From Collinsella sp. zg1085 (lineage in GTDB: Bacteria; Actinomycetota; Coriobacteriia; Coriobacteriales; Coriobacteriaceae): DNA of 64,000 nt. The stretch covers positions 806,001-870,000 of the forward strand of contig NZ_CP076545.1 of assembly GCF_018889955.1 (NCBI RefSeq), given 5' to 3'. Below are positions 929 through 46,398 of the stretch, piece by piece. The position numbers and the translations under genes were made by a program. Numbering within the stretch: the stretch's first letter is position 1; every line of letters begins with the position of its first letter. The notes beneath the pieces are model-generated. The model worked only from the letters and a program-made list of their open reading frames with translations. It made no database searches and had not been told where the DNA came from.

Positions 929-1744
929 ATGAAAAACCTACTACTGTGTAATAAGCTTAGGTGGATTCAAGGATGCCTTTGCTTTTCTCTGTTTTTCTGC
1001 ATTGCTCTGTTTATGTGGACACGTTCAACCTTTACTGATGTAAACGGTGTAGATGCTCATCGCATGGAAGACGCACCATATGTAGCATATGAGTTACAAG
1101 ATGAAACACTTAATTGGTATACATCTACGGAAGATAAAACCTTAGAGAATATGTTTACCACGTTAAAAAAGGCTCCTTTTGTAGTTAAGGCACAGATTTC
1201 AGGTAGTCGTGTTTGGGCTTATAACAGCCGCATTACAGAGATTGTGATACATGAAGTGCTTCGTGGAGATAATCTTGCAGAGGGTGATACGTTGAAGCTC
1301 ATTGAGCCGGTGAGTCCAATGCGTCGGGTATCGAGTGGGGAGCTTGATTGGCATAATACGCAGAGATTACATAGTAATGCCGAGTTTGCTATGCGGCCAA
1401 TTGATGAACCTTATCTAAACGGAATGTCTCCTCTTTCAAAGAAGCAAGAATACTTACTCTTTTTGCAGCCAGTGGAGTTACGTGAAAAGGACGGGAAGAA
1501 TAACAAAGATTGTTATGTAGCTTACATGCAAACCCTCTTTTCATGTATTAATTTGACGCAAAACCGAGTGCTTGTCTTAGCTCGTGATAAAGCAACAACA
1601 TCTGATTCTGGAGTTTGGCTTTCAAAAGAAGAGTGTGCTTTATATAGTTGTGTAGTTGATGATGAACAAACCCTTACACATTATCAAGAACTTCGCAAGC
1701 AGGTTTTAGCAGAGTATAAGGTTATAGATAGTGCTACCGAGTAA
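929..1744 (+). CDS. Membrane-anchored extracytoplasmic protein, function unknown
   Basis: This 271-residue protein is not recognised. It has a basic start and one hydrophobic segment near residues 13-31, which would act as a signal anchor, and the rest is soluble and presumably outside the cell. Residues about 84-125 alternate in a beta pattern (a run reading VVKAQISGSRVW followed by an I/V-rich stretch and VLRGDNLAEGD), reminiscent of OB-fold secreted proteins in Gram-positive ABC clusters, but this is only a resemblance. A good ribosome binding site (GAGGGG) precedes the ATG. It is the last gene of the ABC operon and shares its AT-rich codon use. Confidence 0.75.
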   Translation: MKNLLLCNKLRWIQGCLCFSLFFCIALFMWTRSTFTDVNGVDAHRMEDAPYVAYELQDETLNWYTSTEDKTLENMFTTLKKAPFVVKAQISGSRVWAYNSRITEIVIHEVLRGDNLAEGDTLKLIEPVSPMRRVSSGELDWHNTQRLHSNAEFAMRPIDEPYLNGMSPLSKKQEYLLFLQPVELREKDGKNNKDCYVAYMQTLFSCINLTQNRVLVLARDKATTSDSGVWLSKEECALYSCVVDDEQTLTHYQELRKQVLAEYKVIDSATE

Positions 1745-1789
1745 TACCCTACGTTATTATCTGCCTTCTTGAGCTAGTATCTCCTCTTG

Positions 1790-1818
1790 TGCACAGCGCG
1801 GGAATCAAACGTTACAAT
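1790..1818 (+). promoter_or_regulatory. Candidate promoter of nadE
   Basis: TGCACA and TACAAT are separated by 17 bases in the gap between the ABC operon and nadE. The match to the sigma-70 consensus is partial at -35 (4 of 6) and better at -10. No terminator with a clear T tract was seen for the upstream operon. Confidence 0.35.
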
Positions 1819-1896
1819 ATGCTTATGAGGAGCAACTCTCGCCTTGAATAGGTAGAGCTGCTGGTCACCTTTAATAATCAATGCAAGGAGACGAGC

Positions 1897-3891
1897 GTGA
1901 TTGAGCATATTGAGCCTCAAGATGGATTCTATCGCATTGCCGCAGCTACACCGCGTATTCGAGTTGCAGATGTCTTAACAAACGCTGAGGCAATTTATAC
2001 GCTTGTGCGCAAAGCTGCAGATGCTGATGTACAGGTGTTAGTATTGCCAGAGCTTTGCCTTGTGGGCTATACCTGCGGAGACCTCTTCTTTGACCAACGT
2101 TTGTTGAACTCAGCTGAACACGCCCTACAAGAACTCCTTGCAAAAACCGCTGATATTCCTGTGGTGTATAGCGTTGGTTTGCCGGTAGCAGTTGGTGCGC
2201 ATATCTATAACGTAGCGGCAATGTGTGGAGAGGGTCGTCTGTGGGGTTTGACCGCTAAGCTTCACCTGCCTAATTACCGAGAGTTCTATGAGCGCCGTTG
2301 GTTTAGTCCTGCACCTCAGCAAGCACTGTCTGTGCACGTTGCGGGGCAAGATACAATACTTGGTCACTCATTGGTATACAGCTGTATAGATGCGGGCGCC
2401 GAGGCTCTGCGTATTGGTATAGAGATTTGCGAAGACCTCTGGGTGCCGGTACCGCCATCAACTGCTATGGCAACCGCAGGGGATGCGCTTATCATACTTA
2501 ACGCATCAGCTTCGGATGAAGTTATTGGTAAATCAGCCTATCGCCAGCAGCTCGTTGCTATGCAAAGCGCCCGCTTATATGCTGCTTATGCATACGCTGA
2601 TGCAGGTTTTGGTGAGTCAACAACAGATTTGGTTTTTGCAGGCGAAAATCTCATTGCCGAAAATGGAGCGTTGCTAGCAAAGTCACCCTTATTGTCTGAG
2701 CAGATGGTGATAGTAGATATTGATACCGAGCGTTTATTAGCTGAGCGCCGACACACTACAACCTGGCCTCAAGCAAATCTGCAAGTAAGCGATGCAACGT
2801 CTCCAACGGTGGTTCCCTTTAGTTTTTCAAAAAGTGCTCCTCGCTCAGTCTCAAATCTTAATCGCGTTTTTCCCAGAAAACCCTTTGTTCCAGAGGCTGC
2901 CGAAGATTTACATGAGCGCTGCATGAGTATTTTGCAACTTCAGGCACGCGGTCTTGCAACACGTTTGGCACATACACAAACTCAATCCGTGGTGATAGGA
3001 CTTTCAGGCGGGCTTGATTCTAGCTGCGCGCTTCTGGTATGTGTGCGTGCTTTTGACAGTTTGGGGCTTAATCGCTCTGGTATTCATGCGGTATCAATGC
3101 CAGGTTTTGGCACAAGTAAGCGCACCCGTTCTAATGCACAGCTGCTCGCTGAGGCTTTGGGTGTTGATTTTAGAGAGATTAGTATTGCGCAAGCCGTTAT
3201 GGGGCATTTTGAAGACATAAAACACGATGTTGCTCTACATGATGTTACTTATGAAAATGCTCAAGCGCGTGAGCGTACTCAGGTGCTTATGGATTTGGCA
3301 AATGACTTGGGCGGTTTTGTGATTGGCACCGGTGACCTTTCAGAACTCGCGCTGGGCTGGGCTACGTATAATGCAGACCATATGAGCATGTATGGCGTGA
3401 ATGCCAGTGTTCCTAAAACGCTTATGCGCCATGTGGTGGCCGCAGAAGCAACTCAGGTAAACCCGCAGGTCGCCCACATTTTGCACGATATTTTAGAGAC
3501 ACCTGTCTCGCCTGAGCTATTACCACCCACCAATGAGGGTGATATTGCACAAAAGACTGAAGACCTTGTAGGTCCTTATGAGTTGCACGATTATTTCCTC
3601 TATTATGTGTTGCGTTTTGGTATGCGACCGAGCCGCATGTATAGACAGGCATGTGTATCGTTTGCAGATGCCTTTGACGTTGCAACAATTCTACATTGGC
3701 TCAAGGTTTTTTATCGGCGCTTCTTTGCACAGCAGTTTAAGCGCAGTTGCTTGCCTGATGGCCCAAAGGTAGGTTCGGTAACGCTGAGCCCGCGTGGTGA
3801 TTGGCGCATGCCGAGTGACGCAAGCTGGGCGCTCTGGCAGCATGAGCTTGATGAACTTGATACAAACTATGCTCAAGAGAAGAACTCATAG
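1897..3891 (+). CDS. nadE: Glutamine-dependent NAD+ synthetase
   Basis: Makes NAD+ from deamido-NAD+, ATP and glutamine as the last step of NAD synthesis. The 664-residue protein has the two expected parts: an N-terminal nitrilase-type amidase (about residues 10-290) with the Glu in LPELCLVGY, Lys in AKLHLPNY and Cys in GIEICEDLW, and a C-terminal synthetase with the ATP loop LSGGLDSS near residue 370. Length is normal for the two-domain form, so free ammonia from another enzyme is not needed. The start is GTG at 1897, set by AAGGAG 6 bases upstream. It stands alone between the ABC operon and ldh. Confidence 0.97.
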   Translation: MIEHIEPQDGFYRIAAATPRIRVADVLTNAEAIYTLVRKAADADVQVLVLPELCLVGYTCGDLFFDQRLLNSAEHALQELLAKTADIPVVYSVGLPVAVGAHIYNVAAMCGEGRLWGLTAKLHLPNYREFYERRWFSPAPQQALSVHVAGQDTILGHSLVYSCIDAGAEALRIGIEICEDLWVPVPPSTAMATAGDALIILNASASDEVIGKSAYRQQLVAMQSARLYAAYAYADAGFGESTTDLVFAGENLIAENGALLAKSPLLSEQMVIVDIDTERLLAERRHTTTWPQANLQVSDATSPTVVPFSFSKSAPRSVSNLNRVFPRKPFVPEAAEDLHERCMSILQLQARGLATRLAHTQTQSVVIGLSGGLDSSCALLVCVRAFDSLGLNRSGIHAVSMPGFGTSKRTRSNAQLLAEALGVDFREISIAQAVMGHFEDIKHDVALHDVTYENAQARERTQVLMDLANDLGGFVIGTGDLSELALGWATYNADHMSMYGVNASVPKTLMRHVVAAEATQVNPQVAHILHDILETPVSPELLPPTNEGDIAQKTEDLVGPYELHDYFLYYVLRFGMRPSRMYRQACVSFADAFDVATILHWLKVFYRRFFAQQFKRSCLPDGPKVGSVTLSPRGDWRMPSDASWALWQHELDELDTNYAQEKNS

Positions 3892-4044
3892 GAGCGCGAA
3901 GCTCGCGTACAGCGTTAACGAGTTAATTCTAACCTCTCTTGTTAATAGTAAACGTGCTGAACAACAGAGCTATAAACTGGGTATGAATACACCATGAACT
4001 GCTCGCGGGGTTTTATATGACCCATGGGAAAGGAAGTTGACACT

Positions 4045-4995
4045 ATGATCAATGACCGCAAAGTTGCTATTGTTGGATGCGGATTTGTGGGCTCGTCCTC
4101 GGCGTTTGCGTTAATGCAAAGCCGTCTGTTTAGCGAAATGGTGCTCATTGACGTTGATCGCAATCGTGCAGAGGGTGAGGCGCTCGATATTGCACATGGC
4201 GTTCCCTTTGCTAGCCCGATGAAAATATATGCAGGGGATTATTCTGATGTTGCAGACGCTGCTATGGTAGTAGTCACCGCAGGTGCAGCGCAGAAGCCAG
4301 GAGAGACACGTCTTGATTTGGTTAATAAAAATGTGAGTATCTTTAAGTCCATTATCCCCGAGATTCGCAAGAGCGGGTTTGAGGGTATTTTGCTCATTGT
4401 GTCTAATCCGGTTGATGTGCTCACCTATGCTGCTGTCAAAATGAGTGGCCTGCCTGAGGGGCGCGTTATTGGTTCTGGAACCGTGCTTGATACGGCTCGT
4501 TTGCGTCATCGTTTAGGCGAGCATGTAGATGTTGACCCACGTGATGTGCATGCTTATGTAATGGGTGAGCACGGTGATTCAGAGTTTGTTGCTTGGTCAA
4601 GTGCAACGGTTGCCGGTGTGCCTCTGGTTGACTTCTGCGAGCTGCATGGGCACCGCGACCATGATGCTGCAAATCGGCGCATTGCTGAAGAGGTTAAAAA
4701 TAGCGCCTATACCATTATTGATAAGAAGCATGCAACCTATTACGGTGTCGCGATGACTGTTCGCCGTATTTGTACGGCAATTATGCGCGATGAGAAATGC
4801 GTGCTGCCTGTATCAAGCCTGATGGTAGGGGAGTATGGACTTGACGACATTTGCATCTCACTCCCAACTGTTGTAGGCAAAAACGGTGTTGTAACGCGTA
4901 TTCCAGTTCCTATCAACACAGAAGAAAACGCCGAGCTTCACAGGAGTGCAGCAGCATTGCGTGCTATTATGGACAAAGTTGATTTTGACGCATAA
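4045..4995 (+). CDS. ldh: L-lactate dehydrogenase
   Basis: Reduces pyruvate to L-lactate with NADH, the redox-balancing step of lactic fermentation. The Rossmann loop VGCGFVGSSSA is at the start, followed by VSNPVDVLT, the substrate-binding arginine region and the catalytic histidine in GEHGDSEF (about residue 178). The chosen start at 4045 gives 316 residues, the usual length, and lies 8 bases after AAAGGAAG; an in-frame ATG at 4024 would put that binding site inside the gene. A strong intrinsic terminator follows at 5024-5053, so it is likely monocistronic. Confidence 0.96.
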   Translation: MINDRKVAIVGCGFVGSSSAFALMQSRLFSEMVLIDVDRNRAEGEALDIAHGVPFASPMKIYAGDYSDVADAAMVVVTAGAAQKPGETRLDLVNKNVSIFKSIIPEIRKSGFEGILLIVSNPVDVLTYAAVKMSGLPEGRVIGSGTVLDTARLRHRLGEHVDVDPRDVHAYVMGEHGDSEFVAWSSATVAGVPLVDFCELHGHRDHDAANRRIAEEVKNSAYTIIDKKHATYYGVAMTVRRICTAIMRDEKCVLPVSSLMVGEYGLDDICISLPTVVGKNGVVTRIPVPINTEENAELHRSAAALRAIMDKVDFDA

Positions 4996-5023
4996 GCGTT
5001 GAGGTAACACGGTAATCGTTTGG

Positions 5024-5053
5024 GACGCCCGTCATGCGATGGGCGTCTTTTTT
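5024..5053 (+). terminator. Intrinsic terminator of ldh
   Basis: GACGCCC and GGGCGTC form a perfect 7-bp stem with a 10-base loop, followed directly by six T. It lies 28 bases after the ldh stop and before the GTG start of the next gene. Confidence 0.92.
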
Positions 5054-5073
5054 CCGCAGCGCGGGGAGGCTTT

Positions 5074-6078
5074 GTGAATATCAATCATGCAATTTTGCAT
5101 ATCCTTGATTTTGATTCTTCAGTAGCGGTTATGAGTCAACGTGAGCTTGATTTTGAAACCCGCGCGATAAAATCCTATATAGGAACGCATCTTAGACGGG
5201 CGCGCACCGCAGTTGATAATCGCCGAGCAGCTTTTCTGCCGGACTCAGCTTTTGCTCAGGAGCTCAAACGTTACTTCTTTGGCGAGCGTCAATTTATTGA
5301 GTTTTCGCAGCAAGTGGCCGAGTTTCTACATTCTGAGTTGTCCCGCGCTGATAAGCTTGAATCGGCTGATGTTTTGGTTGCTGATTTTGTTGATGATGAC
5401 GATGCACGTTGGTTTGCTGTGTTAGTGCTACAGAGCAAGCAAGCCTTTATGCATGAGGTTGGGCGCGTTGATGGAGCGGTAAAAAATGACATTAAACGGC
5501 ATTTTGCAATTCTGCCGGCGCCATCTCAAAAAATTGCGAGCTTAGCTCTCGTGCGTGCAAATTCGTTTGAAGTGTATTACCAAGATAAGAACCGAAAAAT
5601 CGCCGGTGAAGACCGTCGTGTTATTCCTGATGGATTGCTAGCGTGTGAAGAGGGAACCTCTGGCAAAGAGACTATTGAGCAGCTTACGCGTGTAGTTACA
5701 GAAGTTGCAGAGGAACACGGTGCAAATACAGCACTTGCGCTTGCAAAAGCTAAAGCAGCGCTTACTGAGGCTGTTGAGGCTGACGAAGAGTTGCCTTTTT
5801 GGGATATTGTTGATGCAGCGTTTGAAACCGAGCCGACCATGCGCGAGGCAGCGCACAAAAGTCTTGATAAGGCTGAGCTTCCAGAGCGGGTACCGGTAGA
5901 GCGTCCACAGGTTGAGCGTGCGGCTATTAAAAACCATCGCATTGTCACTGACACCGGTATTAGCATTAGCTTTCCGGCGGAGCTCGTCAGCAACACCGAC
6001 TACATTGAGTTTATCAATGAACCCAATGGGCTTATCTCAATTGCTCTAAAAAATATTGGCGCTATCGAAAACAAGTAA
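5074..6078 (+). CDS. Nucleoid-associated protein, NdpA/YejK (37-kDa) family
   Basis: A 334-residue cytoplasmic protein matching the NA37 family. Typical is the opening VNINHAILHILD, the following block of short acidic/basic helices and the distal part ending in a hydrophobic beta region. Family members bind the bacterial nucleoid; in Gram-positive hosts several lie near phage or defence genes, but nothing of that kind is near here. The start is GTG at 5074 behind GGGGAGG; an upstream in-frame codon falls inside the ldh terminator and is rejected. It is convergent with the following minus-strand gene, 11 bases apart, with no clear terminator between them. Confidence 0.75.
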   Translation: MNINHAILHILDFDSSVAVMSQRELDFETRAIKSYIGTHLRRARTAVDNRRAAFLPDSAFAQELKRYFFGERQFIEFSQQVAEFLHSELSRADKLESADVLVADFVDDDDARWFAVLVLQSKQAFMHEVGRVDGAVKNDIKRHFAILPAPSQKIASLALVRANSFEVYYQDKNRKIAGEDRRVIPDGLLACEEGTSGKETIEQLTRVVTEVAEEHGANTALALAKAKAALTEAVEADEELPFWDIVDAAFETEPTMREAAHKSLDKAELPERVPVERPQVERAAIKNHRIVTDTGISISFPAELVSNTDYIEFINEPNGLISIALKNIGAIENK

Positions 6079-6089
6079 GCTGATAGGGC

Positions 6090-7130
6090 TTATATCTTGT
6101 TCATTTCAGCTACGGTGTTGTTGTACCATGCAAACCAATTGGGCGGGCAATACTTTTGTGCACCCTGAACGCTGATGGTATAACCATAGCCCTCGGCAAG
6201 ACCACGCACGTGAGTATCAATAGCTTCTTCCCATGAGGCAAAATCAATATGACCCCAGCCCCAAGCATTGTGCTCACGGAAGAGATGCTGACCCTTGGAA
6301 CTCTCGGTATTGGAGATAGCGGGAGACCAGCGAGGGTCAACACCATAGGTCCAAGCAGCACGCGCAAAGTTTTCGCCATAGCCAGCAAGCGGAGAGCCCT
6401 CAAGGTAGGCATTGATGCGCGGTGCCCAAAGCGCTACAAAGTCATCAACAGAAAGACTCCAGTCTACTGTTGTAGCATCAATTACAACCGGTGTCTGCCC
6501 TTGACCGCCAGCCTGTTGTGCAGCCGCCTCTTGTAGAGCCCTCAGTTCATTTTCTGCCTCTTTAGCAGCGCGCCTTTCAGCAGCCTGGCGCAACGCTTGC
6601 GCCTCTTTGAGAGCAGCGTCAGCCTTGGCCTGTTCAGCTTGTGCTTGGGATTTTGCCTGTTCAAGCTCAAGTCGTTGCTGTTCAAGCTCAGCCTCTGTCG
6701 CTGTAAGCTCGTCCAAGGCTCGTGTATTTGAGGCATTGATTTGATCGAGATAATTCATGCGGGTCAAGAAATCCTCAAATGACTCCGCATTTAACACAAG
6801 TGTCATAAATGAATTGCTGCTTTGCTCATGCTTGTACGAAGCACGCATCGCACGGCTTGCCCGTTGACGTTGAGCCGGAAGTTTGCTCTCAAGTTCAGAA
6901 ATGCGTGCAGCATTTTCGTTAATTTTGTCTTGGAGCTTATTTACCTGAGCGCACGCATCACTATAAGCGCTTGCACTTGCTTCTACCTGCTTTTGAGTTT
7001 CGGTAAGCTGTGCCTCGGTTTCTTGCGTCACAGCCGACGCAATAAGCGAGCCACCTGCCACACCGCTCAAGGTAAGAGCGAGTGCAGCGCCTACAAAAAT
7101 TGCACGATGCTGACAAAAGCGTTTATGCAT
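6090..7130 (-). CDS. Secreted coiled-coil cell-wall protein with C-terminal lysozyme-like domain
   Basis: A 346-residue exported protein. Residues about 9-34 form a signal peptide ending near an ASAV site. Residues about 40-215 are a long Gln/Glu/Ala-rich coiled coil of the PcsB/CwlO N-terminal type, with the LPAQRQRASRAMRASYKHEQ stretch and the following hydrophobic hinge. The last 110 residues look like a lysozyme-fold glucosaminidase domain (SNTESSKGQHL, NAWGWG, the final WYNN). In PcsB-like proteins the coiled coil docks on FtsX, so activation by FtsEX is a reasonable inference. The ATG at 7130 is preceded by GAGGAG. Another protein with the same N-terminal type is encoded at 46515-47681. 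Confidence 0.8.
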   Translation of the reverse strand: MHKRFCQHRAIFVGAALALTLSGVAGGSLIASAVTQETEAQLTETQKQVEASASAYSDACAQVNKLQDKINENAARISELESKLPAQRQRASRAMRASYKHEQSSNSFMTLVLNAESFEDFLTRMNYLDQINASNTRALDELTATEAELEQQRLELEQAKSQAQAEQAKADAALKEAQALRQAAERRAAKEAENELRALQEAAAQQAGGQGQTPVVIDATTVDWSLSVDDFVALWAPRINAYLEGSPLAGYGENFARAAWTYGVDPRWSPAISNTESSKGQHLFREHNAWGWGHIDFASWEEAIDTHVRGLAEGYGYTISVQGAQKYCPPNWFAWYNNTVAEMNKI

Positions 7131-7410
7131 GTACAATCTCCTCAAAGACTTTGAGTCCAACAATTCACAGCAAGCAGTTTACTACTGGCTTCGACCTCAA
7201 CTTGAACCTTAACAAAGATTAAGGGTCAAGTTTAAGGTTTAAGATGGGCGCTACGCTGCGATGTTATTTCATTGTGTAGGAACCATAGAGTTTATAGTTT
7301 TACTTGAAGGTTGAGACTTCTTGGATACACACAAGCCTTTGACCTGCACCTTCTTCAAATACGCACATGTCTTATTTCGTCACGAGTGACGGATTGGTCA
7401 TTAATGGTAG
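7131..7410. other. Gene-free region with two dyad elements
   Basis: This 280-base divergent region holds the start signals of the minus-strand wall protein and of the riboswitch transcript. An inverted repeat AACCTTAA / TTAAGGTT spans about 7205-7239, and CGTCAC-GA-GTGACG at 7378-7391 is a perfect 14-base palindrome about 20 bases before the riboswitch. Both could be regulator sites; no convincing promoter boxes were found. Confidence 0.4.
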
Positions 7411-7558
7411 GATGCCAACATTATATATATGGCCAAGATGGTGGTATGGAGACGTACGGACGCAGCAAGCGTCTAGGAGAATGAGGTGAGAGTCCTCAGC
7501 TGTACCAGTAACCGTATTTCGGTCAGTCGTGAACAAGGTGCCACAGATCGGATGGCAT
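7411..7558 (+). ncRNA. Cobalamin riboswitch
   Basis: The core resembles the B12 element: GGAGAATGAGGTGAGAGTCC at about 7475-7494, then CAGCTGTACCAGTAACCG, then the AGTCGTGAACAAGGTGCCA part that corresponds to the GAGTC...CCTGCC end of the Rfam cobalamin family. ATGCCA (7412-7417) pairs with TGGCAT (7553-7558) to close the aptamer as a P1 stem. It sits immediately upstream of two surface-protein genes with DUF4430-like domains, a domain related to the C-terminal part of transcobalamin, which supports the assignment. A covariance-model score was not available. Confidence 0.78.
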
Positions 7559-7587
7559 GCACGGCTGGTAAACGTTAAGTCGGATCG

Positions 7588-7650
7588 CCTCCCATCGAAC
7601 GCTGACAGCTGTCAGCGAGGCTCTGGAACGAAAGGGAAGTCCATGGTAGG
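7588..7650 (+). promoter_or_regulatory. Probable riboswitch expression platform
   Basis: CCTCCCAT (7588-7595) can pair with ATGGTAGG at the start codon (7643-7650) with a single mismatch, and a perfect 16-base palindrome GCTGACAGCTGTCAGC lies between them (7601-7616). There is no T tract before the gene, so control of translation by hiding the start is more likely than termination. The pairing is a by-eye prediction. Confidence 0.45.
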
Positions 7651-10600
7651 TCTCCTTCAAGCATGCCGTTGCATGCTGAGACGCTCATATGTATCGCGCG
7701 TCATAACTCATGCCTCAAAAGCTAAATATGCACCGTATAGCTCACATAGCGTGATAAATTGCTTTACCGCTTGTGTGTTGAGCGCTGCTTTAATCACGAG
7801 CTCTCTGCCCATTTTGCCCGTTGTGGCCTTTGCCGCCGAGGACAGCATACCTTCATCGTCCTTAGTAGCAGATGCGGCGGCTGAAGCATCTGATGCAGCT
7901 GACAATTCTTCTGTAGATGCTCGGTCAGAATCTGATACAGCGCTTACATCAGACACACCTGCATCACCAACGAATGTGTCAGCCTCAGTGCAGCCCTCTC
8001 AGCCTGAACCTGCTTCTTCAATGGCGCTTCGCTCAGCTGTAAGCGAAGACTGGGATGACCTTGGCTGGGATGACGATGATGAGGATGATTCAGATACCCC
8101 AGAGACGCCCGCACCTACACCCGCGCCAACAACTGCTGTTGCAGCTGCGGTTGCAGCACTTAAAAAAGATGGTTTTAGTGGATATGTTCCTCGTCCGGTT
8201 GAGGGTAAAGACACGAACCTTGCACGCATGCTTGAAGCACGCTTAGCTGAGTTGGGGCACCCTGGTATTCGTGTGCGGGTAAAAGCGACGGGACAAACAA
8301 CTCCTGATCCAGCGCAACAAGGTGGCATTGATGTTAGTGAGGGTGCTGAGAACGGTCGCATCCAGTATTTCTTTTTGTCGCCTGATGCTAAGACATCAAA
8401 AACTGATATTTCTGTGCTACGCAATATTCAGCCCGTATATGAACTGCAAAAAGACGGTGAGACGGCTGAGTATAAGCCTTCGCGCACAACTGCACTGCCC
8501 TGGGATAGCGCACGCGTACAAAGCTTTTTAGAAGACCTTGCAGCTCATGCTGAGCTTCCTGACATGCTAACCACAGGACATGCGCCTGATAGTCTTGAGA
8601 GCCTTGCGCTGCCTGCTGCCCTTGCAGGGTCAAAAGTTACAAAACTTGCAACTGTTTCATGGACAAGCTCTAACCCACAAGCATTAAAAATTACAACAGG
8701 CTTTGATAGTCAGTATCGCCCAGTAGTAACAGCAACACTTACTCATGGTGAACGTGCGACTTCAGTTGATGTGACGGCCACCTATAAGCTCTTTGTATCG
8801 GGTTATGGACAAGATGTTCCGGTAACTGTTACCAAAACCTATACCGTAGCGGTTGCAGCCAAATCATCTGATACAGCAGAGGCAAAAAAAGCTGAGCTCG
8901 CAGCTATTCTTGAGCGTATTCAGCTTAAAGATTTCTCAAGTGGTGAGCCGCTTGCAAGTAGGGAGCTTGCAGGCGATATACAATTCTCTCGCCCGCGTGA
9001 CCTCAACATTGATGGCAAATACTACAAACTCTCATATAGTAGTTCGGATACTGGTGCTATTGAAATCTCTGGTTATCGCGGCGTCAGCACTCCGTCTCTC
9101 GAGGGGGAAGCACCCCGTACAGCGGAGCTAACAGCCAGTCTTACGCATGATGGTGTGACCGTTTCACGTTCGCTGGGAGAGTTTCTTACGCGCAGCGTTA
9201 GCCGTGCTGAGATTGAGCGGGCAGTTGCAGCTATGGAGGCAGCTAAGGCGGCGTATCCATTAGCCCTTCTGGGTACCAACCCCGATAGTTCGCACGTTAC
9301 CGAAGCGCTGACAACGTTTCGCGCGGCAGTTCCAACCTATGGAAGCGATGCATCGGTAGCGCCTTCTATTACTTGGGCACGCACACAAGCTGAGGCTGGC
9401 TCTGGCAATATTGAGCCAGTTGATCTTCCGGGTTTTGATTCTATGTCAGGCTCTAAGTGGCGAGCCTTCCGTTCTTCAAATGAGCAGGTTATTGCAAGTG
9501 AATCCTTGCAAGTTACGCGCCCTGCCTTTGATACGGTGGTGCGTATTGAATCGCAGCTGAGCTATCGAGCATATGAGTCACTTGCGCGGGCATATCCTGA
9601 GAATGACCAGTTGCAAAAACTGGTTAATCAGCTGGTGAGTGCCACTGTTACGGTGTTGGGTACCCGTGGTTCAATAGACCCAGATGCCGAGGCAGTGCTC
9701 ACAGCAACGGTACGGGTACAAGGTATGACAGACCCAGCACAAGGAACGCCCCACGCTGAGACTTGGGTTGCTCCTGAAACCATTTCGTTTAAGAAGAGCG
9801 CTGCGCCAACGGTTTGGACACTTATTGCGCAAGCGCTTTCTAATCATGGCTATAGCTTTGACATGACCAGTGGTTCTCCAGGTTCAGTGACGAGTCCATC
9901 GGGTCTTACGTTAAGCATGTTTGAGCAGGCGGGTCAGTGGAGCTATTGGAGCACCCTTGTTAACGGTGAATATGCGCAAGGGTATCCGCAAAACATTGCT
10001 GTATCCGCAGGCGATCGCATCGAGCTTGTGTATGTGTCACCATTGTTGAATGCGCAGCCAACGCCTGACCCGCAACCGACACCTCAACCAAGCCCAGACC
10101 CAGACCCAACGCCTCATCTTGACCCCAGTCTTCATGCAGATTGGTCTGGTTTTGGCAACGGCGGCTCAACGGTAGTTGAGCGAGATGGGTCACCAGCTGA
10201 TGAAGCAGAAGCGCGTTGGGTCAGCTCGTTGAGCAACGGTGTTGATATGTATACGCTGGTTGGCGATCCAGTTATTGTAGGAGATGCTATCTACTGTGTG
10301 ACGCAAACTGAGCTTATTAAACTGAATCGCGTGAGCGGTCAGGTAATGGCGCGCACTACTACCGGCGCACATAACTCATATTTTGCTCGCCCATTCTTTG
10401 CGGCAGGTCTCATTATTATCCCCTCAGATGGTGGTGTGGTGAGTGCTTTTACGGCCGATACCCTGACACGTGTTTGGCAAAGCGTAGTAGCTCCTGCTCC
10501 ACTTGTAGAAGGACAAGAACTGAGCTACCAAGCCGCATCAGGCATTACGCTTGTCGGAAATACGCTGGTAGTACCCTTTATGGCAGGGCCGAGCTTTGAT

Positions 10601-11908
10601 GGTTCTCCTTCTGCGGCGGGTGCGTTGGTGGGGCTTGATTTGGCAGATGGTCATGTGCTTTGGACGCAGGCGAATGTGCGTGATGAGAGCGCTGATTCGG
10701 CTGGTGGCTACTATTGGGCTGGTGCTGCGCAAAGCAGCGAACAGCTGCTTATTGCAAATGACGCTGGTCGTGTTTCGCTCATCGAAAGTGCAACCGGTCA
10801 GGTTCTTGCAAGCCTTAAGCTTCCGTCATCGGTGCGCACGGCAGTTATTAAGGGCTCAGAGCCTGACACCTTCTATGTGGTAGGTCGTTCACCAGCGGTG
10901 TTGTATAAGATAGAGCGAGTAGCTAACACCTTGCAACTTGCAGGGTCAGTTCCTTTTGCTGATTTTTCAACGTCAACTCCTGCCGTTGTGGGCAATCGCA
11001 TCTTTGTGGGCGGCGGCATGACAGGCTCGCGAGGGGCATTGGGTGTTTTGGCAGAAATTGATGCAGAGCACATGAGTCTGATTCATCGCGCTGATTTGGG
11101 CGCTGGCGAGGTAAAGTCAACACCTCTGGTTGTAAAGCATGACGGTAAGCTTGCGGTGTATGTTGTTACAAATATGACTCCAGGTACGCTGTTTTGTTAT
11201 CAGCCTGAAACGCATACGGTGAAACCCTTGTATACGCCACAGGGCAATCATGCAAATTATTCAACCTCAAGTGTTATTGTCGATGCTGAGGGTAATCTGT
11301 ATTACAGCACTGATGCTGGTGTGTTAATTTCGCTAGGGCGCAAGTTGAACACTGATGAGGTTCATACTCATCAACCGGGCTCTGGCGAGGCTGAAACTCC
11401 TCAGCCAGGAGTAGGTATTTTGCCGCAACCGGGTGACAATACAGCGCAGCCGAGCACGCCAAATACAGGTGATACCTTAGGTCATACACCGGAGGTGGGA
11501 GATGGCTCTGTAGCTGGTAAGCAATTAGCTGATTCAGAGCGAGACCTTGCACATAACGATAAGGAGCAGCCTCAGCAAGAGATACCTTCTACAGGTCCTG
11601 CAACTCGTGTGACAGGTCGCGTTGCTCCTGGAAAGCGCCCGCTTGCAGCCGCAACAACCGCGTCTGATGCAAAGAGCACTCAGGCAGATACAGCGCAGGC
11701 AAACGCAAGCGTTGAGAAAGACACCGCATCTTTGACAGAACCATCAGTCAGCGCACCTACAACAAAAGCATCTGTTGCTCATACAGCAGACCAGCAGAAA
11801 GCAGGTATGCCCTTAGCACTCATACTTGCTCTTGCCGGAATACTAGGTTTGGCGTGTGCGGGCTTATGGTTCTTGCTGCTTAAGCGTCGTCAACAGCGCG
11901 AGGGCTAG
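7643..11908 (+). CDS. Large surface protein: Ig-like repeats, DUF4430-like domain, PQQ-type beta-propeller, C-terminal anchor
   Basis: About 1421 residues from the ATG at 7643 (AAAGGGA 5 bases upstream). A basic N-region and hydrophobic stretch to about residue 65 form a signal peptide ending AFAA. Then come an acidic/Pro-Thr linker, several atrophied bacterial Ig-like domains (conserved WTSSNP and SYSSSD strands, about residues 180-700), a DUF4430-like domain near 720-800 (WSYWSTLVNG...GDRIELVY), a PQQ-type propeller near 850-1235 (repeats such as LIKLNRVSGQVMAR and LVGLDLADGHVLW) and a linker. A membrane helix near 1390-1410 with a KRRQQR tail anchors it. The cobalamin riboswitch upstream suggests a role in capturing corrinoids at the surface; that role is inferred. 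An upstream in-frame GTG at 7529 lies inside the aptamer and is rejected. Confidence 0.85.
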   Translation: MVGLLQACRCMLRRSYVSRVITHASKAKYAPYSSHSVINCFTACVLSAALITSSLPILPVVAFAAEDSIPSSSLVADAAAEASDAADNSSVDARSESDTALTSDTPASPTNVSASVQPSQPEPASSMALRSAVSEDWDDLGWDDDDEDDSDTPETPAPTPAPTTAVAAAVAALKKDGFSGYVPRPVEGKDTNLARMLEARLAELGHPGIRVRVKATGQTTPDPAQQGGIDVSEGAENGRIQYFFLSPDAKTSKTDISVLRNIQPVYELQKDGETAEYKPSRTTALPWDSARVQSFLEDLAAHAELPDMLTTGHAPDSLESLALPAALAGSKVTKLATVSWTSSNPQALKITTGFDSQYRPVVTATLTHGERATSVDVTATYKLFVSGYGQDVPVTVTKTYTVAVAAKSSDTAEAKKAELAAILERIQLKDFSSGEPLASRELAGDIQFSRPRDLNIDGKYYKLSYSSSDTGAIEISGYRGVSTPSLEGEAPRTAELTASLTHDGVTVSRSLGEFLTRSVSRAEIERAVAAMEAAKAAYPLALLGTNPDSSHVTEALTTFRAAVPTYGSDASVAPSITWARTQAEAGSGNIEPVDLPGFDSMSGSKWRAFRSSNEQVIASESLQVTRPAFDTVVRIESQLSYRAYESLARAYPENDQLQKLVNQLVSATVTVLGTRGSIDPDAEAVLTATVRVQGMTDPAQGTPHAETWVAPETISFKKSAAPTVWTLIAQALSNHGYSFDMTSGSPGSVTSPSGLTLSMFEQAGQWSYWSTLVNGEYAQGYPQNIAVSAGDRIELVYVSPLLNAQPTPDPQPTPQPSPDPDPTPHLDPSLHADWSGFGNGGSTVVERDGSPADEAEARWVSSLSNGVDMYTLVGDPVIVGDAIYCVTQTELIKLNRVSGQVMARTTTGAHNSYFARPFFAAGLIIIPSDGGVVSAFTADTLTRVWQSVVAPAPLVEGQELSYQAASGITLVGNTLVVPFMAGPSFDGSPSAAGALVGLDLADGHVLWTQANVRDESADSAGGYYWAGAAQSSEQLLIANDAGRVSLIESATGQVLASLKLPSSVRTAVIKGSEPDTFYVVGRSPAVLYKIERVANTLQLAGSVPFADFSTSTPAVVGNRIFVGGGMTGSRGALGVLAEIDAEHMSLIHRADLGAGEVKSTPLVVKHDGKLAVYVVTNMTPGTLFCYQPETHTVKPLYTPQGNHANYSTSSVIVDAEGNLYYSTDAGVLISLGRKLNTDEVHTHQPGSGEAETPQPGVGILPQPGDNTAQPSTPNTGDTLGHTPEVGDGSVAGKQLADSERDLAHNDKEQPQQEIPSTGPATRVTGRVAPGKRPLAAATTASDAKSTQADTAQANASVEKDTASLTEPSVSAPTTKASVAHTADQQKAGMPLALILALAGILGLACAGLWFLLLKRRQQREG

Positions 11909-11913
11909 ATTCG

Positions 11914-12858
11914 GTGGATACTTCTATGATGAGTAATCAGAGGTCAGAATCTCGCACTTTGCAGAGGAGCAAATCTATTAGCGCTGAGCCAGAGCAACTA
12001 AAAGAGGATACCCGCATCTATCCAGGGCATGTACCTATCTCTTCAACAAAGCAGGTGCGTCAGCTGCGTGCTCCTGCTGTTTTAGCGCTGGTATCGCTCT
12101 GTTTGTTGCTAGCAGCGGGTGTTTTAGCGCTTACCGGCACGGAATCTTTGAGCACTAATGCTCTGTTTGCAGGCTCTCATCAGGGTTTGGCTGCTCGAGT
12201 GTACAAGGACGATAGTGCTTCTTTCGATACGCATGAGCAGTCTGTAAATCAGACACAACAAGAGCAGGCCTTAAGGGCCGATGGTGGTGAACAAGCTTCC
12301 CTTGATGAGGGACAGTCAGCGCCCTCGACACAGAAATCATCATCTGGAGCAACAGATGATGACAACAAGCTTGCCTCTGTCTCAACAGGTACAAGTGCAA
12401 ACAGCACCGACAATGTTGGCACAGGCGTGTCAGATTCAGGAACAAACAGCACAAGCGGTGCAGGCTCATCTTCAAGTACTAGCTCGGGTTCAAGTGCCAC
12501 CTCGGGTTCAGCCAACTTAGCAAACAACACGAGTACCACCACATCAAACACGATTACTGTCACTGTTCGGGTAAGCGCTGCTGCTGCGGGTGGCGGCACC
12601 CTTGCAAGTAAGAGTTTAACCTTTGAGCGTGGAGCAACTGCATACGATGCACTTGTTGGTACCGGACTTTCGGTTAATGCGTCATACACCGCGTTTGGCA
12701 TTTATGTAGCTGCAATTGGTGGCTATGCAGAGGGCGAACATGGGAGCGAAAGCGGTTGGAAATATGCGGTGAATGGGTCTGAGCCGAGCTATTCATCAGG
12801 TGCCTATGAGCTTAAAGATGGAGATACACTAAGTTGGTACTACGTCTTGAGCGCATAA
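11914..12858 (+). CDS. Membrane-anchored DUF4430 protein
   Basis: Begins 5 bases after the preceding gene, so it belongs to the same cobalamin-riboswitch transcript. The 314-residue product has one hydrophobic helix near residues 52-75 (signal anchor), a long low-complexity Ser/Thr/Gly/Asn spacer (about 100-220) and a C-terminal DUF4430 domain (about 228-314) with GATAYDAL, SGWKYAVNG and the final GDTLSWYYVL. DUF4430 is related to the C-terminal domain of intrinsic factor and transcobalamin. The architecture is a membrane stalk presenting a small ligand-binding domain outside the cell. The start may be GTG 11914 or ATG 11926; both have weak binding sites. Confidence 0.85.
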   Translation: MDTSMMSNQRSESRTLQRSKSISAEPEQLKEDTRIYPGHVPISSTKQVRQLRAPAVLALVSLCLLLAAGVLALTGTESLSTNALFAGSHQGLAARVYKDDSASFDTHEQSVNQTQQEQALRADGGEQASLDEGQSAPSTQKSSSGATDDDNKLASVSTGTSANSTDNVGTGVSDSGTNSTSGAGSSSSTSSGSSATSGSANLANNTSTTTSNTITVTVRVSAAAAGGGTLASKSLTFERGATAYDALVGTGLSVNASYTAFGIYVAAIGGYAEGEHGSESGWKYAVNGSEPSYSSGAYELKDGDTLSWYYVLSA

Positions 12859-12893
12859 CCTTATAGCACGCGCTTTGTTATTTGAGGGTAGTG

Positions 12894-12934
12894 GCGGTCT
12901 TTGTGAGCTATGAGATGCACAAAGACCGCTTTTT
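12894..12934 (+). terminator. Intrinsic terminator of the DUF4430 operon
   Basis: GCGGTCTTTGTG and CACAAAGACCGC make a perfect 12-bp stem with a 12-base loop followed by five T. It closes the two-gene riboswitch unit. Confidence 0.95.
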
Positions 12935-44799: not shown

Positions 44800-46398
44800 C
44801 TATTTATCTGAGCCGCGTCGATTCTCACCCTCAAGAGAGCGTATTTCAGCAATATCTTGAGTTGTTTCTAGGGCACCGAGGTAGTTACCCTCAGCATCGC
44901 GGACTGCAAAATAGCGAACATACAAGAACGCATCACCTCTATGAAACCAAAAGTCGAAAGAATCGCTTTCACCGCTCTTGAAGTTTTCAAAAATCATACG
45001 AACCATTTCTTGGCTCTTAGGCGGGTGACATGCATAAACATCACGCCCGAGACAGCTCATGGGACGAGGGAAAGCGCGGGTATCGCCATGTGAGAAATAC
45101 CGTGTCTTGTCCTCGCTATCAACAAAGGTCATATCAAGCGGAATAGTATTAAGCACTGCTTCAAGCTGTGCGACCGTAAAACTTCCCGTAGACAGCTTAA
45201 TGAGCTGCTCAGACTCGGGTGCACTATCCTCGGTTGTAGAACTAGCGTTAGTTGTATCCTCAACACGTTCGAGTTCATTATTAAGCTTTAACGCGCGAAT
45301 GCGATCGTTGGCAAGCTCAAGCGCATCTGCTCGCCAGATAACTGGCTTCTCAATAAAGGCATAGCCAATCTCAGGCCCATCAGCAGCAATTTGTGTCCAC
45401 TCAGTTGCACTTAAATTTTCAAGTGCAAGCGGAATAAGAACTTGCTCTTCTTTATCAATCATAGAGCGCGTGTCGATTGCAGCTTTCTTAAGAATTTCTG
45501 CTACCTCACGCAAAACAAGTGCATGCACCGCAGCGCCTGCCCAATCAAGTCGCTCACGGGCAAGCTTTACTTGGTCTCGGATTTCGTCGTCCTTGCCCCA
45601 CATAACGCTTGACGGACCCATAATGTTGTGCTGCTCAAGATGGGGGAATAACAGCTCTTCTTTGCGTTTGTAGTGAGTAAATACCTGAGCATATCGGTCT
45701 AGGTCCCCATAAAGAAGTGTGGCAACCGACTTTGCCTTCATATCTTCAGGAAGCTTTGCTGCGAGCTCAAGATGCTCTTCAAGTTCTTGTAAAAACTCAG
45801 CAATAGCTTTGTTTTCAAGCAGCATAAGCTGTACCGGATGTCCCGGAGTCTCACCGGCTTCACCTTGGGGTACGGCACATGCAATACCTCCCTCAAACAG
45901 AGTTGCATGTACATCACATAAGCGTTGCACCTCTTCAATTGCTACACCACTCGCCATGAGAGCTTGCTCAGCTGCGGCAATTTCTGAACCCGAAACTGAT
46001 TCAAAATTACGTCGGAAGTCTTCTTGCACGTCTTCAACACTCTCACCATTGCCAAGGCGCTCTAAGAAAGAACGAAGCAATTTCTGACGCTCTTCGGGTG
46101 TGCGGGCAATCTGATTTGAATCCTCGGTGCTCGCATCTGCCCTTTCTTTGAGCGCCTCAGGGAGATTGCTGCCCTCTACCTCAAACCCCGCTGCTCGAAA
46201 TGCCCGTACAACATCTGCAAGGTCAATCTTTTTGAACTCACAGCCCTGTGGAATCGTCATAAAACGCCCCATTGTTGCTAAGCGCCCAGGAAGCGTAATC
46301 TCTGTAAAGCCAAGCTTTGCCATAAGTTCAATAATTTCTGGATATGCTTTAGAAATGCTATAGACCGATTCATCTAAATTGATAGTTTTACCTGCCAT
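44800..46398 (-). CDS. DUF438 / hemerythrin / PAS domain protein
   Basis: A 532-residue cytoplasmic protein. Domains in order are a DUF1858-like N-terminus (about residues 5-60), the DUF438 region (about 90-170), a helical hemerythrin-type HHE domain (about 185-340; HTKRKEELL-like HYKRKEELLFPHLEQH and MIDKEEQVLIPLAL) and a C-terminal PAS domain (about 415-520; ending LGALETTQDIAEIRSLEGE). Such proteins are thought to sense oxygen, NO or redox state through a diiron site in anaerobes. ATG 46398 follows GAAAGGG. No partner kinase is adjacent. Confidence 0.88.
   Translation of the reverse strand: MAGKTINLDESVYSISKAYPEIIELMAKLGFTEITLPGRLATMGRFMTIPQGCEFKKIDLADVVRAFRAAGFEVEGSNLPEALKERADASTEDSNQIARTPEERQKLLRSFLERLGNGESVEDVQEDFRRNFESVSGSEIAAAEQALMASGVAIEEVQRLCDVHATLFEGGIACAVPQGEAGETPGHPVQLMLLENKAIAEFLQELEEHLELAAKLPEDMKAKSVATLLYGDLDRYAQVFTHYKRKEELLFPHLEQHNIMGPSSVMWGKDDEIRDQVKLARERLDWAGAAVHALVLREVAEILKKAAIDTRSMIDKEEQVLIPLALENLSATEWTQIAADGPEIGYAFIEKPVIWRADALELANDRIRALKLNNELERVEDTTNASSTTEDSAPESEQLIKLSTGSFTVAQLEAVLNTIPLDMTFVDSEDKTRYFSHGDTRAFPRPMSCLGRDVYACHPPKSQEMVRMIFENFKSGESDSFDFWFHRGDAFLYVRYFAVRDAEGNYLGALETTQDIAEIRSLEGENRRGSDK

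Follow-up and report, generated by a model that had tools for sequence, protein, structure and literature searches.

The gene pair and its products

The 64,000-nt stretch of Collinsella sp. zg1085 DNA analysed here (the window) carries on its forward strand, at about 7430-12934, a structured leader, two genes and a terminator. The large gene (7643-11908, start ATG) encodes a surface protein of 1421 aa and the small gene (11914-12858) one of 314 aa. The initial annotation had read these as a two-gene unit closed by a perfect terminator. In line with this, comparison across family genomes finds the two genes kept together as a pair, and the intrinsic terminator (12894-12934) has a 12-bp stem without mismatch (12894-12905/12918-12929), a 12-nt loop and UUUUU, with a fold z of -3.8. 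Cluster c5, which adjoins the small gene at C. aerofaciens-like loci, was rejected as a conserved partner, being an antisense shadow of GtrA genes.

Both products are predicted, as previously proposed, to be exported and anchored by hydrophobic segments. In the large protein a signal segment (residues 45-63) is followed by a poorly typed N-terminal region, a divergent DUF4430 domain (9692-10042, residues 684-800), a beta-propeller (10142-11323, residues 834-1227) and a C-terminal transmembrane anchor (11822-11878, residues 1394-1412). The small protein has an N-terminal transmembrane anchor (12076-12132, residues 55-73), a low-complexity linker and a C-terminal DUF4430 domain (PF14478, 12541-12855). 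In the propeller region a Pfam PQQ_2 match of 46.6 bits and an AlphaFold2 model, which finds YxaL, BamB and other 8-blade folds at Z 33-39, agree with the PQQ-type propeller first suggested and point to an eight-bladed, BamB/YxaL-type domain. The several Ig-like domains described along with it were given up: relatives have aBig_2, and neither Pfam nor an aBig profile built from those relatives matches the window protein, so an Ig array is not claimed.

DUF4430 had been assigned to both proteins. The assignment is clear for the small one, which scores 50.3 bits against a Pfam cut-off of 23.8; conserved motifs of the domain are YGxYV-xxIxGL and sGWxYxVNG. The copy in the large protein is strongly diverged, and was recognised by a family profile (E 8e-6) at Pfam scores of 14-19 bits (19.2 for the domain as delimited), below the cut-off. 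A relationship of DUF4430 to the C-terminal part of transcobalamin and intrinsic factor had also been put forward; by sequence, the DUF4430 profile reached transcobalamin-1 at E 0.21 only, and the claim is therefore carried by fold comparison. The domain model matches the beta domains of transcobalamin, haptocorrin and intrinsic factor at Z 14-16, with an rmsd of 1.7-2.2 Å over 96-102 residues; matches at this level comprise cobalamin carriers and 3u7z only, and the next unrelated fold stands at Z 8.6. The small-protein domain is thus predicted to have the beta-domain fold of these carriers, a likeness that by itself is no proof of a kept corrinoid pocket. Profiles and folds proved informative where PDB searches with single sequences, namely the window small protein and an L. 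curvatus LPXTG protein, had no useful outcome.

The leader and its probable expression platform

Directly upstream of the large gene lies a cobalamin-type riboswitch aptamer (7430-7597) which, on comparative sequence evidence, belongs to a divergent subtype that is AdoCbl-II/class-II-like and has a large extension of P6. The leader finds no match at Rfam gathering thresholds: RF01689 (AdoCbl-II) scores 25.2 bits (E 0.002) against a cut-off of 36.5, and RF00174 scores 20.1 bits against 31.5, although this is the top RF00174 score of the whole genome. Most members of the subtype, the window copy included, fall below both cut-offs; one close member exceeds that of RF01689, with 38.7 bits. Of the B12-type aptamer proposed earlier, the Rfam recognition failed for the window copy, and what upholds it is covariation and placement; its P1/P2 stem, GAUGG:CCAUC, was confirmed. 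It is this comparative evidence that settles the identity of the aptamer, the Rfam scores being sub-threshold.

In the leader alignment, a 43-pair structure has 93.2% of its cells paired, and sliding the structure out of register reduced this from 93% to at most 47%. Double changes occur in 158 cells, compared with a shuffled mean of 50, and involve 30 pairs against 17 after shuffling. As to placement, about 50 Coriobacteriaceae genomes have the riboswitch directly 5' of the same gene pair, and a strict core motif occurs 55 times, each time at a DUF4430 locus. Some 20 of the 67 family genomes have weak RF00174 matches, mostly directly 5' of DUF4430 genes. A covariance model (R1), which had the window sequence in its training set, scores 162 bits at the window leader; its other matches precede MutL of glutamate mutase and RACo, and a further one precedes the gene of a CbiK-like protein (identified by sequence).

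The subtype has in common with RF00174 and RF01689 the P3-P6 core, J6/3, L5 and the layout for translational control, and differs from them by extra 5' hairpins and by its large, covarying P6 extension. P5 (7501-7503/7508-7510) bears in its loop, L5, the ACCA of 7504-7507. The following stretch (7598-7645) is probably a translational expression platform, judging from its sequence and from leader conservation, with a mechanism taken from the literature on corrinoid riboswitches (PMC10653944). It comprises a hairpin (7601-7618), a conserved CUGG (7623-7626) complementary to the CCAG at 7505-7508 of L5, and a Shine-Dalgarno stretch (7630-7639) ahead of the ATG at 7643-7645. Both CUGG and the Shine-Dalgarno stretch are kept across Coriobacteriaceae and Eggerthellaceae leaders; since the putative kissing pair between CUGG and L5 is invariant, covariation is no test of it. 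Elsewhere in the window, a second weak RF00174 match of this genome (11.7 bits) lies on the minus strand at 45732-45910.

ECF transporters and cobalamin use

In Eggerthellaceae and other relatives, a single operon holds, in this order, the riboswitch, the large propeller protein, the small DUF4430 protein and the ECF components T, A-A' and S. The family profile of the S subunit matches CbrT (PDB 6FNP) at E 5e-19, and CbrT is reported as the S-component of a demonstrated cobalamin transporter (PMC5997447). A scan of GTDB with the S alignment collected the 80 nearest CbrT-like loci, 61 of which have a DUF4430 gene within 9 kb. Among Bacillota, six of eight tested DUF4430-ECF loci are headed by RF00174 cobalamin riboswitches scoring 102-114 bits; at the L. 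curvatus locus no cobalamin riboswitch was found. The look near ECF corrinoid transporters of relatives suggested by the initial annotation was thus strongly positive, both in the Eggerthellaceae operons and at most of the 80 loci.

That annotation had also remarked that no corrinoid permease adjoins the pair, which is true locally, the ECF operon of this genome (S, A-A' and T, 1592812-1596126) being unlinked and 0.78 Mb away. Its products are about 32-60% identical to the T, A-A' and S proteins of Eggerthellaceae, its S is 37% identical to that of L. curvatus, and no riboswitch was found at this operon by RF00174 or R1. A BtuC-type permease was not detected in the genome, where FecCD matches are weak and partial: one of 26.4 bits (27.4 with neighbours; cut-off 26.5) lies beside what is by sequence a metal-type ABC cluster, and the other reaches 16 bits.

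The genome has one protein with a B12-binding domain, the cobalamin-dependent MetH, and CbiC was not detected in it. Collinsella aerofaciens is listed as B12-requiring (PMC6593275). Five family genomes have DUF4430 and S, and searches in them turned up neither a PF02310 protein nor QueG nor a clear NrdJ, which counts against the corrinoid-uptake reading proposed below. QueG and NrdJ had been considered as B12 users in the MetH-less relatives and were rejected, QueG being absent and NrdJ either absent or represented by weak partial matches.

Proposed corrinoid capture at the cell surface

We propose that the pair is the surface half of a B12 uptake system, a riboswitch-repressed trap that supplies corrinoid to an ECF importer of CbrT type. 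We regard surface capture of B12 as very probable, because the same genes adjoin the B12 importer in related bacteria; the extracellular corrinoid-capturing complex suggested at first reading gains support from this operon linkage, from the CbrT match and from the predicted beta-domain fold. According to this model, scarcity of intracellular cobalamin would let the class-II-like riboswitch keep the large gene's ribosome site accessible, and the large and small proteins would be exported and anchored in the membrane. The DUF4430 domains and the propeller would then bind corrinoid outside the membrane and hand it to the unlinked CbrT-type transporter (S, A-A' and T), to be imported chiefly for MetH. 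With plentiful cobalamin the aptamer would fold, L5 (CCAG) would kiss the CUGG beside the Shine-Dalgarno stretch, and translation would stop.

The kind of system is known, and the variant appears to be new and undescribed in the searchable literature. In transcobalamin, haptocorrin and intrinsic factor, whose C-terminal beta domain has the fold predicted for the small-protein DUF4430 (rmsd about 1.8 Å over 97 residues), alpha and beta domains form one soluble chain. In the window pair, by contrast, it is a membrane-anchored protein that bears the beta domain; the large protein, also anchored, has a second but divergent domain of beta type; and there is no alpha domain, its operon position being taken by a beta-propeller. 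BtuG, too, has a beta-propeller fold; it serves the TonB-dependent BtuB of Gram-negatives, whereas the window propeller goes with DUF4430 and an ECF importer and is predicted to be eight-bladed and BamB/YxaL-like, BtuG not being among the matches listed, which does not exclude a likeness to it. Both BtuG and BtuH are Bacteroides lipoproteins described as capturing B12 at the surface of gut bacteria before it reaches a transporter (PMC6143338, PMC10404256), as is proposed here. Profile comparison matches CbrT of Lactobacillus delbrueckii ECF-CbrT with the S component of this genome and with that of the linked operons in relatives, and the CbrT-type locus stands in for BtuCDF. The CbrT paper (PMC5997447) describes a group II system whose gene cluster is nrdJ-cbrS-cbrT-pduO, and searching it by term found no riboswitch, DUF4430 or propeller partner; DUF4430-linked operons differ in that T and A-A' are encoded within them, as are surface proteins, and the two halves are unlinked in this genome.

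Extracellular B12 capture in Gram-positives is poorly known, the studied binders BtuG and BtuH being from Bacteroides and CbrT having been studied alone. DUF4430, still of "unknown function" in Pfam, would gain a concrete, testable role. The riboswitch kind, the transporter family and the transcobalamin-like fold coincide in many Actinomycetota and Bacillota, among them species of the gut, and surface capture of this type is predicted to be a point of competition for B12 in the gut.

At the 80 nearest CbrT-like loci the neighbour of DUF4430 is an alpha/alpha-barrel in 25 cases and a propeller in 23, and never both. The barrel, found in many Bacillota relatives, resembles the transcobalamin alpha domain. 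Pfam finds no alpha domain in the window pair, and an alpha profile built from relatives matched none of the tested Coriobacteriaceae and Eggerthellaceae large proteins of the window type, a set outside which the window protein itself stands. It is quite possible, though less likely than not, that the propeller replaces the alpha domain without being homologous to it, that DUF4430 with either barrel or propeller forms a two-part, high-affinity corrinoid clamp, and that animal carriers descend from the barrel version or share ancestry with it. Such a split alpha/beta arrangement bears on the origin of animal intrinsic factor and transcobalamin, and the strict exchange of barrel and propeller is a clean natural experiment on the requirements for a corrinoid cage.

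It is also quite possible, if short of probable, that the pair is corrinoid-regulated and serves uptake while only DUF4430 binds corrinoid, the propeller and N-terminal region being a scaffold or adhesin that spaces the trap or docks it to wall or transporter. The nearest propeller folds, YxaL and BamB, are indeed scaffold or secreted proteins without corrinoid, the large protein varies among relatives from about 770 to 2450 aa, and there is a crystal structure of the isolated transcobalamin beta domain with cyanocobalamin (PDB 5np4). Yet the strict alternation of propeller and transcobalamin-alpha-like barrel at one operon position suggests an equivalent role for the propeller rather than that of a generic scaffold, and aromatic and polar residues in it are invariant over 26 proteins.

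We consider it unlikely that the surface proteins strip cobalamin from carriers of host or microbial origin, such as haptocorrin and intrinsic factor, or that they capture some other tetrapyrrole or a metal complex while the riboswitch does no more than report cofactor status. Large, variable surface proteins would suit protein-protein contact, and the DUF4430-like 3u7z is titled a putative metal-binding protein; however, it is CbrT-type S components to which the pair is linked, every beta-domain relative with a known function is a cobalamin carrier, and none of the analyses points to contact with host carriers. That the leader is some other structured regulator, and the pair an unrelated surface adhesin rather than a corrinoid trap, would fit the want of a gathering-level Rfam match in the window, but is made highly improbable by the leader covariation, the close member above the AdoCbl-II cut-off, the R1 matches at other corrinoid genes and the full-strength RF00174 matches at the analogous Bacillota operons.

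A surface pair under probable riboswitch control and a CbrT-type importer

The gene pair very probably encodes a surface corrinoid trap that is repressed through a riboswitch and feeds an unlinked ECF importer of the CbrT type: with corrinoid bound, the riboswitch would repress the trap, which would itself pass corrinoid to the importer. In the openly accessible literature searched, we found no paper tying DUF4430 to bacterial B12 uptake. The host genome is a single contig of 1.72 Mb, in a GTDB genus that also holds Collinsella aerofaciens. As the initial annotation described, one leader serves two genes closed by a perfect terminator (window 7411-12934): the large gene (ATG 7643-11908, 1421 residues), the small gene (11914-12858, 314 residues) and a 12-bp stem followed by U5, with the large-small order kept across the family. 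The membrane helices it placed in both products also stand, the large protein having a signal-like N-terminal segment and a C-terminal helix, and the small one a single N-terminal helix. A PcsB-coiled-coil peptidoglycan-hydrolase-like protein is encoded divergently (6090-7163, minus strand).

The predicted structure of the small DUF4430 domain (AF2, pLDDT 94.7) resembles haptocorrin, intrinsic factor, transcobalamin and 3u7z (Z 14-16; next fold 8.6), consistent with the proposed relation to the C-terminal part of intrinsic factor and transcobalamin. The DUF4430 domain of the large protein is divergent (E 8e-6 with the family profile). The large protein's propeller model (pLDDT mostly 85-97) is similar to YxaL, to BamB and to designed propellers with eight blades (Z 33-39), in favour of the annotated beta-propeller. 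The several Ig-like domains also annotated were not confirmed, none being detected in the window large protein, although relatives' proteins carry aBig_2. Among the closest folds to the propeller (10142-11323) is mycobacterial Rv3035, solved with FecB (9p3f), possibly an earlier case in which a BamB-like propeller works next to a protein that captures a nutrient.

The initial annotation suggested looking in relatives for the pair near ECF corrinoid transporters, and in Eggerthellaceae (apparently including Gordonibacter) an R1-type leader, that is, one matching the covariance model of this riboswitch family, does head a large-small-T-AA-S operon. Its T, AA and S are ∼32-60% identical to those of the window genome's own ECF operon (1592812-1596126), which is unlinked to the pair. 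With its profile, S hits CbrT (PDB 6FNP, E 5e-19), a transporter demonstrated to take up cobalamin (PMC5997447). S is present in 63 and DUF4430 in 60 of the 67 family genomes, and the two co-occur (Fisher p 0.003, uncorrected for kinship); in several members, such as G020, G026, G045 and G052, an S match lies a few kb from a DUF4430 gene on the same contig. Besides the CbrT-type operon, the window genome has a different, likewise dedicated ECF operon (T, A-A', S; locus L106 5514-8693, ∼191.5-194.7 kb).

The leader

The B12-type aptamer of the initial annotation stays below Rfam gathering scores, at which no riboswitch was found in the window, and gains support from covariation, placement and one family member scoring above the AdoCbl-II cut-off. 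At permissive scores AdoCbl-II was the sole relevant window match (7460-7598, 25.2 bits), and RF00174 gave the leader 20.1 bits, its top place genome-wide. Weak RF00174 matches in the 67 family genomes fall mostly directly 5' of DUF4430 genes, and the 55 copies of the core motif in fetched loci sit at these leaders. An alignment of 29 leader copies supports 43 base pairs, with 93.2% of cells paired (at most 47% in slid controls) and 158 double-change cells vs 50 in shuffles; P5 covaries (A-U, G-U and G-C), as does P2 in each of its six pairs. By its RF01689 alignment and J6/3 sequence, the leader looks to be a cobalamin riboswitch of a class-II-like type that carries an extra P6 extension. R1, trained with the window copy included, matches 124 of 331 Coriobacteriia genomes.

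In leaders of both Coriobacteriaceae and Eggerthellaceae, a CUGG adjoining the Shine-Dalgarno stretch is kept; its complement CCAG stands in L5, and the two are an invariant candidate kissing pair. Because ligand-induced L5-L13 kissing shuts the ribosome site in known translational corrinoid riboswitches (PMC10653944), we infer by analogy that the leader would act as an OFF switch on ligand binding.

Exchange of the partner domain and the need for B12

GTDB genomes were scanned with the S alignment and the best 80 loci kept; DUF4430 lay within the fetched flanks at 61. The protein beside it carried an alpha/alpha toroid at 25, a window-type propeller at 23 and both at 0, counts limited by incomplete loci and profile thresholds. 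Toroid and propeller are each found in both Actinomycetota and Bacillota, and therefore kinship alone does not explain the swap. We call the toroid putatively transcobalamin-alpha-like, because its profile matches terpene-cyclase-type toroids and PF01122, the family of animal cobalamin carriers, picks up one member (E 3.5e-4, below cut-off). Of 8 Bacillota DUF4430-ECF loci tested, 6 have an Rfam cobalamin riboswitch at their head, each scoring more than 100 bits.

MetH is the only protein of the window genome with a B12-binding domain; searches there found no CbiC or QueG, only weak class-I-like RNR matches for NrdJ, and, in place of a BtuC-type permease, only a weak partial FecCD match. C. 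aerofaciens is listed as B12-requiring despite biosynthesis genes (PMC6593275). Two family genomes (G044, G065) have CbiC and are without pair, S or R1 match, and G058 lacks the pair, an R1 match and PF02310. Five near-complete genomes (G021, G022, G023, G032, G033) keep DUF4430 and a CbrT-type S and showed no known corrinoid enzyme: neither a PF02310 protein nor QueG nor a clear NrdJ was found.

Further leaders and related loci

R1 matches without a large homologue lie 5' of MutL of glutamate mutase (L142) and of RACo (L158), and also precede genes that, judged by sequence, encode a CbiK-like cobaltochelatase (L150) and a lone DUF4430 lipoprotein; the CbiK-like, MutL and RACo leaders add further members to the Coriobacteriia corrinoid regulon. 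The lipoprotein locus, in an Eggerthellaceae genome (L155, riboswitch 755-920, gene 947-1453), is possibly a minimal one-protein form of the trap. Atopobiaceae-type loci (L167, L170, L175, L176; Olsenella, Thermophilibacter) carry a DUF4430-ECF operon, with a propeller protein in view in three of the four; none gave an R1 match, and regulation there may therefore differ. In other Collinsella-group genomes (L157, L099, L100, L101) a canonical cobalamin riboswitch precedes a FIVAR surface protein of 1522-1578 residues. In G034 (L157, riboswitch 1226-1345, gene 1495-6063) this protein bears a transcobalamin-alpha-like barrel, and beside the small DUF4430 gene of that genome (L053) neither a window-type large protein nor an R1-type leader was found. 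In Gordonibacter-group genomes two R1-type riboswitches stand in tandem 5' of the large gene (L146 10545-10979, L148 760-1194).
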